From NCBI GenBank assembly GCA_031275815.1, contig JAISOF010000025.1, positions 1 through 40,992 of the forward strand: a stretch of 40,992 bases of DNA. The letters run 5' to 3'. The notes under the pieces were generated by a model that was not told where the DNA came from, made no database searches, and was given only the letters and a program-made list of their open reading frames with translations. Numbering within the stretch: position 1 is the stretch's first letter; every line of letters starts with the position of its first letter. The stretch comes from Candidatus Nomurabacteria bacterium. GTDB lineage: Bacteria > Patescibacteriota > Saccharimonadia > Saccharimonadales > Saccharimonadaceae. The position numbers and the translations under genes are program-made. Shown one piece after another: positions 25,913 through 28,458 of the stretch.

Positions 25913-28458
25913 ATGTTACGGAGAAGTAAGTTGCAGAAGGTTTCGTCCCGCATTGGGGTTGTGCTTGCTCGCGTGAAAAAAGCTCTCTCTCTCTCTCTCT
26001 CTCTCTCTCTCTCTCTCTCTCTCGGGCGCGCCGCCGGCGATTCGTTAAGACAGTTGGGATAGTCTCGCTTTTGTTGATGGGGGTGCCCTGTTTGATGGTT
26101 TATGTTTTTTATCGTCAGAGTAGTCCGGTGCAGGAGGGGGTGGCTATGGAAGAGGAGCCCGCCATTCTCACCCCTCAAGCTGGGGGCACTTCGTTGCAGG
26201 ATTTGCCTTTTGGCTCCGTCATCCAAATCCCTTCCACTGACACCTACATGTGCAATGACACTAGTAATTGTACCGCCACTACCACCACCGTTCTGCCCTA
26301 CAAATTTGTCAAAATGCAAGCTAGAACCAGTACTGGAGCTACCTATTCTCCCTCAGATAAAAGTTACTGGGTAATGCTTGATAATTACTGCTGGTGGGGG
26401 AGTTCTAATTGTCAATACTATGACGGCACCAGAAGGTCTCGTTACGCCTCTTGGAATGCCAGTACTTTTTCTGATTACAGCAGTAATATCTCTGTCCCTA
26501 AAACCTACAACTTCCTTAATACCCTAGTCAATTTCTACAACTCCCTCCCTTCCACCATTGGCGGTGTCTCAAAAGACACCGCCATCCCTACCTACAATTG
26601 GGAAATGGTTCCAGTTCCTTATATTACTGGTACTCCCACTAAATCCTCTTGCATTTCCGGCTGGTCAGCCGGAAGTGCAAGTTTCAATGGCACCTCCATC
26701 ACCTTCAACTCCGATTGTACCTACACTTACAAAGTCTCCCTCCCCTCTTACGATGAATGGCAAGGTGGCCTTTATGGTTATGGAGATTACACTGGCACCA
26801 CCAACTCTGGAGCTGGTGGTGCCTTCTGCTCTGCCCGCTTTGGAGTTGACTGTACTAATAATGGCACTTATTATCTTTTTAGCGACACTTCCGCAACTTC
26901 TGGCTTTCCTACCGTCTCCTCTTCTAACCCCCGACCCTATTACCCCTGGCTGCGGACGCCGGATGTCATGTACACGAACTTTGCGTGGTTTGTGGAAGGC
27001 TATAGTTCGTCTAGTTCCGTGAGCACCTATGGCTCCGGCTCCGGTAATGGCGTGAGTCCCAGCATTTGGTTCTCATCTACAATTTGCACACCTGACTCAG
27101 GAAATGGCAGCTACGCCTTACCCCTATCACTAACACCCTGCGACACCACTCCCCCCACCTGCACCGCATGGTCCCCCGCCACCAGCCCATGGAAACAAAG
27201 TGGCAGTCAATCCTTTACCATTACTGGCTGTTCCGATGATTCCTCTGGTCTCAACCCCTCTAATAATTACACGTGTGTGACTGGCGGCAATCACGGCGAC
27301 ACCTGCAACGTCACCATCTATGATAACGCTGGCAATTCCCAAACCTACTACTCTCCCGCCAATAACGTCGATACCACCCCGCCCTATCTCACCGGCGTCA
27401 CCTGCAACGGTATTGATTGCCGCACCACCCTCTATTTCAACACCAATGATGTCACAGTATCTTACACCGGAGTGGGCGACAGCCAAAGTGGCTTTAGTCA
27501 TATTAACTATTGGCTTTACGGCCCAATTGACCCCTCCCCTCGCATTACTCAATTAGCCGCCACTTCCATTAGCTACACTTCTTTGCCAGAAGGCAGCTAT
27601 ACGGCACATGGGATAGCCGTTGACAATGTGGGTAATTTGTATAATTTCTCTGATGACTATCCGGGTTATTTCATAATCGACACCACCCCGCCCGCCCTCT
27701 CCGCCACCAACTCTGGAACCATCCAACCCAGTACTCCCATCACCCTCTCCGTTTCTGACACCCTGTCCGGTCTGCCCTCCGGTGCGGTGCGTTATGCTTG
27801 GGATGTCAACACTTTGGATGGCACTTGCTCAACCGGCGGCTCCAACATCCTTGATTCTGCTGTCATCACCAACGGCACTGATTTTGCCGGCAGTCTGCCC
27901 GCCGGCGATGGCGCCCACACGTTGTATCTTTGCGCCAAAGACAGTGCCGGCAATGTCGCCACATGGAGCGGCAGTTATGAACTTGTCACTATATCCGTCC
28001 AATCCGACCAAACCACCATCAACCTGCCCATCGACCTCGCCATCAGCTCCTCCGCCACTGCCGCCAATGCCCTCACTGTCAAGACCAACAATCCGCTGGG
28101 CTACACCATCACTTTGTCCATCGCCAAACAGAGCGATTCTTGCGCCAACACCACCACAGCCCTCAAACACACAACCCACAGCACCGCCAGCATTCCCACT
28201 ACAGTCAACCTGTGGGTGGCGAACGGACTGGCGGACACCCCGCTCCAGATCAATACTTGGGGTTTCAATCTCAACAACTCGAACACCAACTTTATGGCTA
28301 TTCCGGCTTGCGACAACCCCAGAACTATCAAGACCAGCACGAGTGCCACTCAACCAACCGGCGAAAACACAACGGTGACCTATGGGGCAAGGGTGGACAT
28401 GTCGCTGCCGGCGGGTGATTATACGAATACGGTGGTGTACACAGTTGAGAGCAGGTAG
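25913..28458 (+). CDS. Large Ig-like surface protein, phase-variable and OFF in this sequence
   Basis: Translation from the ATG at 25913 (MLRRSKLQKVSSRIGVVLAR) runs through (CT)20 as Leu-Ser repeats and stops at TAG 26060 after 49 codons. The main frame continues from the tract to 28458. With 19 or 22 CT units both join, giving an 847-residue protein at 19. It would read basic N-terminus, LSLS run, RARRRR, signal helix (VGIVSLLLMGVPCLMVYVFY). Then come a DUF6273-like module (SLPSYDEWQGGLYG ... PWLRTPDVMY ... GVSPSIWF), three Ig-like domains linked by DTTPP, and the CPR-type terminal domain (VKTNNPLGYTITL ... WGFNL ... YGARVDMSLPAGDYTNTV). A TTG or ATG near 26071 could give a fallback start but would lose the basic n-region. 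No anchor is seen. Confidence 0.85.
25983..26022 (+). repeat. Dinucleotide repeat (CT)20 in 5' coding region
   Basis: Forty bases of pure CT beginning in codon 24 after the ATG at 25913. The current count puts the downstream frame out of phase. Confidence 0.97.

Follow-up and report, generated by a model that had tools for sequence, protein, structure and literature searches.

In Helicobacter pylori, a CT tract in the 5' signal-peptide region of oipA/hopH and sabA sets the frame of an adhesin by slipped-strand mispairing (PMC10564699, PMC2715451). Campylobacter jejuni, with 29 poly-G/C loci, and Neisseria meningitidis, with its phasomes, carry tens of independently switching surface-related loci per genome (PMC4965091, PMC5084427). 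In the Candidate Phyla Radiation (CPR), slipped-strand mispairing has been discussed for a repeat-bearing surface-protein gene of Gracilibacteria BD1-5 (PMC6851277). Nanosynbacter lyticus TM7x has two type IV pili, one of which helps the cell to bind its host, and surface fibres act in host binding and growth (PMC12206443).

The locus described here resembles the Helicobacter genes in carrying a long CT tract between the start and the signal helix of a predicted surface protein, and its genome has many tracts of the same kind. We propose that (CT)20 acts as a switch for translational phase variation. It would belong to a set of about 30 AG/CT loci and a few poly-G/C loci at which switching is predicted, and we give this reading a probability of about 0.88.

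Results

The locus and its protein

The window, which is the whole stretch of 40,992 nucleotides that was analysed, is contig C35 of a genome of 1,067,570 bases (43 contigs, 93% complete), and repeats were counted genome-wide. The TypA proteins of many Candidatus Saccharibacteria, gut isolates included, share 70-76% identity with TypA of this genome; for Nanosyncoccus alces the figure is 75%. The bacterium is thus a Saccharibacterium, and probably a host-dwelling, episymbiotic one.

The elements of the locus are listed in Table 1. An earlier note on this DNA had described a (CT)20 tract, a near-consensus promoter 6 nt before the ATG, a TAG that ends the ATG frame, a TAA that ends the third frame, and a main frame that is joined when one CT unit is lost or two are gained. 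The sequence bears out every one of these elements. There are 20 perfect CT units at 25983-26022 with one additional C at 26023, and the two promoter hexamers match the consensus at 11 of 12 positions. When the locus is translated in silico, repeat numbers of 16, 19, 22 and 25 give one protein of 845-851 aa, and all remaining numbers from 14 to 24 give a peptide of 41-51 aa. As at a contingency locus, repeat number sets whether the in silico product is full-length or truncated, and the repeated unit, whose length is not a multiple of three, lies downstream of a credible start, near the 5' end of the coding sequence.

Table 1. Features of the (CT)20 locus and of the other repeat tracts in the window
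Feature	Position	Strand	Remarks
-35 hexamer TTGACG	25878..25883	+	
-10 hexamer TATAAT	25901..25906	+	leaderless-type start, ATG 6 nt downstream; spacer of 17 nt
ATG start and basic leader MLRRSKLQKVSSRIGVVLARVKKA	25913..25982	+	leader type recurs elsewhere in the genome
Putative switch tract, (CT)20 + C	25983..26023	+	Leu-Ser in every frame
TAA closing the third frame	26046..26048	+	
TAG closing the ATG frame at 20 units	26060..26062	+	predicted OFF, 49 aa
Main frame, 810 aa	26026..28458	+	RARRRR and signal/anchor helix, Thr/Ser/Asn-rich ectodomain, C-terminal domain
Hydrophobic helix VGIVSLLLMGVPCLMVYVF directly 3' of the tract	26053..26109	+	Kyte-Doolittle mean 2.38
(AG)16 on the coding strand, after ATGCGATTAGCC	40639..40670	-	in frame (predicted ON)
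Gene of the AG16 tract, 1355 aa	36630..40697	-	four TIG domains and ALK/LTK-type glycine-rich domain
Poly-C13 near 5' end of TIG/glycine-rich surface gene 9151-12531	12422..12434	-	in frame (predicted ON)
Poly-G12 near 5' end of surface gene 2936-7057	6889..6900	-	in frame with TATAAT-ATG start (predicted ON)

The main frame is open over all of its 810 codons. Its protein, for the most part without a domain assignment, has a weak Ig-like match (Big_13, E = 0.0013, below the cut-off) and a C-terminal domain common to other Saccharibacteria proteins; an AlphaFold2 model of the ectodomain alone has a pLDDT of 32. Searches with this protein found no related loci, and within the family they returned partial matches only, with no ortholog of different repeat number among the family genomes searched.

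A genome-wide set of AG and CT tracts

The earlier note had treated the locus singly. Its switch reading stands, but it missed both the genome-wide set and three further tracts within the window (AG16, C13 and G12), all of which are in frame. Runs of CT/AG are bimodal in length across the genome: 17 have four units, one has five, none has 6-7, and 31 have 8-33. The last group corresponds to 30 loci, one tract being interrupted. Under a genome-wide first-order Markov model, 0.014 CT/AG runs of at least 6 units are predicted, so that these perfect repeats, as at contingency loci, lie far beyond chance (0.014 expected, 31 observed). Other long dinucleotide repeats are absent genome-wide; CA/TG never exceeds 4 units and TA never exceeds 5.

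A long open reading frame (ORF) follows the tract at 24 of the 30 loci, and in 23 of these 24 ORFs a hydrophobic membrane or signal helix comes soon after the tract. The exception is C33:59384, whose 1299-aa product has a GNAT domain. Only 10% of the genome falls within the first 150 nt of such long ORFs. The six remaining loci are either cut by contig ends (C2, C8, C24 and C34) or precede a separate ORF (C7 and C43). Two designs are found. In the CT design, the coding strand reads (Leu-Ser)n after a leader and the start is often leaderless; in the AG design, it reads (Arg-Glu)n after ATGCGATTAGCC, with a Shine-Dalgarno-like leader. Domains predicted downstream of the tracts, many of them adhesin-like, include TIG, ALK_LTK_GRD (ALK/LTK glycine-rich), Laminin_G_3, Fib_succ_major, SdrD_B, Chlam_PMP repeats and MBG. 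Membership in the Helicobacter Hop outer-membrane family was considered and rejected, as no tract protein matched a Hop barrel in Pfam and TIG, ALK_LTK_GRD and others were found instead. A phasevarion was likewise rejected, with no mod-type methyltransferase among the tract genes scanned. A shared mobile cassette as the means by which the tracts spread found no support: leaders are common within each type, yet those of the relatives G003 and G185 look different.

Some loci depart from these designs. At C7:1739-1764 and C43:424-444, the CT tract lies in a short upstream frame before a Shine-Dalgarno-led ORF, and translational coupling instead of fusion is possible there. C31:5992 and C39:10569 each have a pair of ATGs, not in the same frame, ahead of the AG tract, and two of the three repeat phases may be ON, with differing N-termini.

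The inverted repeat GTTGTAA-N3-TTACAAC, often followed by A and then by C or T, has 30 copies in the genome, including one at window position 6957; one copy lies just 5' of the poly-G12 surface gene, and others lie just before CT tracts. Window positions 40760-40992 are 80-94% identical to about a dozen other genomic sites and are probably a dispersed repeat. On the minus strand, 35033-36335 is a relative of the FYRSLAPTEAA surface family that has no tract and is frameshifted mid-gene; it is a pseudogene or an assembly error.

Distribution in relatives

In the form searched, at least one CT run of at least 8 units is present in 32 of 198 genomes of the same family and absent from 166. By the same pattern, the present genome has 22 such runs, G003, of another genus, has 21, G012, an incomplete genome of the same genus, has 9, and G185 has seven. 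In a phylum-wide sample of 380 genomes, no newly sampled genome exceeded four such tracts. The set of putative switch tracts is lineage-specific.

All seven tracts of G185 are in type IV pilin-like genes, after the start and before the GFTIVELL motif. The same placement is seen in six further genomes of two genera, with one or two tracts each, so that N-terminal tracts of type IV pilins are known from seven relatives in two genera in all. In G185, five consecutive pilin-like genes (G185:C10:95349-101850, L104) each have 8-17 CT units directly behind the start, and one of the five is in frame.

Assembled repeat numbers and phases

At n = 20 the assembled copy is predicted to be OFF, a state that depends on the assembled repeat number, which is the consensus of a fragmented metagenome-type assembly and may be off by one unit. 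The count could thus be an assembly or PCR-stutter error in a gene that is simply on, the cells having 19 or 22 units. We consider this unlikely. The genome is in 43 contigs, several of which end at or beside tracts, as such an error might lead one to expect. However, the error would have to throw about 60% of loci out of frame in several genomes, and it would alter the state recorded for the locus, where a switchable tract would still be present.

Contig ends fall within 800 bp of 9 of the 30 loci, against 1.9 expected. Shared flanks explain this clustering as well as mixed repeat lengths do. Contigs C13 and C14 both end at ATGCGATTA, just 5' of an expected AG tract, and are identical there over 119 of 119 bases. 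These ends probably mark two or more further switch loci that the assembly lacks. Because identical flanks such as those of C13 and C14 can themselves break assemblies, contig-end clustering is indirect evidence for mixed lengths. A repeat of about 146 bp (C34:133-280), 92-99% identical at some 20 places, also ends many contigs.

Across this genome and three relatives, 16 distinct loci are ON, that is, in frame with the ATG, and 27 are OFF, after correction for one tract that had been counted twice; the uncorrected counts, 16 and 28, gave p = 0.75 against one third. The assembled phases fit random switching, near one third ON, and mixed phases of this kind are found at contingency loci. Ordinary coding repeats would nearly always be in frame.

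Slippage of the polymerase or ribosome could instead yield some full-length protein at every repeat number, with the tract acting as a dimmer. Long homogeneous tracts do invite slippage, and low-level leakage is compatible with what is seen, but the phases are near random and not fixed at one value, and the argument for a dimmer is itself one of inference. We regard it as improbable.

The start of translation

A -10-like box lies exactly 6 nt before the first ATG in 72 of 936 ORFs (those of at least 150 codons, whole genome). Most other spacings give about 5 such ORFs, and an intragenic control stretch gives about 2. Leaderless transcripts are probably common across the genome. Because the -10 box stands 6 nt before the ATG in these 72 ORFs, ATG 25913 has the form of the usual leaderless start of this genome, and its spacing recurs at C7, C8 and C33:70790. 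The leader that it opens is of a recurrent type as well. This type begins with ATG-TTA/TTG, followed by SKL or SKS and a basic stretch (MLxxSKL/SKS-type), and it precedes CT tracts at C7, C8, C25:62532, C27:594, C33:70790 and C43.

It is very unlikely that the gene is translated without the tract, from TTG 26071 or ATG 26077, with the CT run as an untranslated leader. ORF callers would choose TTG 26071, and at C7 and C43 the tract does stand before a separate Shine-Dalgarno-led ORF. Yet a start at 26071 or 26077 would cut off the RARRRR/basic stretch together with roughly half the helix. From the sole near-consensus promoter, transcription would begin at ATG 25913 itself, the usual leaderless arrangement in this genome. 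At sister loci, moreover, the ATG stands directly before the tract, as ATGCGATTAGCC(AG)n, and 10 of the genome's 11 ATGCGATT-type leaders lead into a tract.

Constraint on out-of-frame genes and mismatch repair

OFF ORFs are free of stops over 200-1700 codons. In pairs of paralogues that are both OFF, dN/dS is 0.30-0.54, like that of pairs with ON copies, as measured on the one paralogue family of the set with enough members, not on the 26026-28458 gene. With no stops and a dN/dS of about 0.3-0.5, the OFF genes appear to be maintained by purifying selection and not decaying; an OFF gene kept intact, here judged from dN/dS of the paralogue family, is a further property of contingency loci. Poly-A/T runs of at least 9 are rare (5 observed, about 80 expected by a Markov model), and poly-G/C runs are in excess (21 observed, 5.6 expected). 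Slippage-prone runs thus seem to have been purged except where useful.

Loss of mismatch repair destabilises dinucleotide tracts. The MutS core domain (MutS_V) was found in none of the 61 family genomes searched, namely this genome and 60 relatives; it was present in 11 of 14 control genomes. Because MutS is missing, dinucleotide tracts should be unusually unstable here. That the out-of-frame copies are decaying pseudogenes without mismatch repair, and their tracts neutral microsatellites, is hardly credible: MutS is indeed missing and the tract-less relative at 35033-36335 is frameshifted, but the long OFF frames are stop-free with dN/dS of 0.30-0.54, constraint is equal in ON and OFF copies of one paralogue family, and the tracts are nearly confined to the 5' ends of surface genes in a genome purged of poly-A/T runs.

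Discussion

The frameshift on/off reading put forward in the earlier note is supported by the parallel loci, the intact OFF genes, the leaderless start, the absence of MutS and the pilin tracts of relatives. In the switch that we propose, slipped-strand mispairing at replication would add or remove CT units. Whenever the repeat number leaves a remainder of 1 on division by 3 (16, 19, 22 and so on), translation from the leaderless ATG 25913 would pass along the Leu-Ser run and continue in the frame of the signal helix and the 810-codon protein, and the gene would be ON. At other repeat numbers, translation would end after 41-51 residues, and the gene would be OFF. With about 30 AG/CT loci and a few poly-G/C loci predicted to switch independently, each cell would probably get a different set of surface adhesins. 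We infer both slippage in living cells and actual expression. The domains and the lifestyle suggest that switching would serve partner attachment, or else escape from phages or predators.

Cultivated Saccharibacteria are obligate episymbionts on other bacteria, with pili that take part in host binding. This set of putative switches bears on the question of how Saccharibacteria find their bacterial partners and change them. We lean towards the broader view that Saccharibacteria have a genome-wide phasome, made up of about 30 AG/CT adhesin switches in this genus and of type IV pilins in two other genera, which, in this lineage lacking MutS, would diversify partner attachment or phage receptors. 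It would be the first in the CPR. If this is true, one 'strain' would be a mixture of surface types, and out-of-frame surface genes would often be missed by annotation and proteomics. Switching could then be read from existing metagenome reads. In related genera, pilin genes that bear such tracts may open a way to study this in cultivable species.

We found no report of phase variation by simple sequence repeats in Saccharibacteria or Patescibacteria in the literature searched, which left out most subscription papers and all bioRxiv preprints. Among that literature, the nearest CPR case is the 9-mer in-frame repeat of the Gracilibacterium. That repeat encodes PTD and varies synonymously, unlike an on/off frameshift tract. 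The type IV pili of Nanosynbacter lyticus TM7x have their counterpart here in relatives that carry CT/AG tracts in pilin-like N-termini, although the TM7x study mentions no phase variation (PMC12206443). Whereas Campylobacter and Neisseria are the likeness in number of loci, the present tracts are mainly dinucleotide AG/CT with few poly-G/C, their products are mostly adhesin-like exported proteins, and the genome is reduced and probably that of an episymbiont. The closest likeness is to Helicobacter pylori. Here, however, the proteins are unrelated (TIG, glycine-rich, lectin-like or Ig-like, not Hop barrels) and belong to a different phylum, starts are leaderless, tracts occur in both CT- and AG-coding orientations, and they are longer (8-33 units). 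By this comparison, the putative mechanism is one already known, of the Helicobacter pylori oipA type, and the lineage is new for it.
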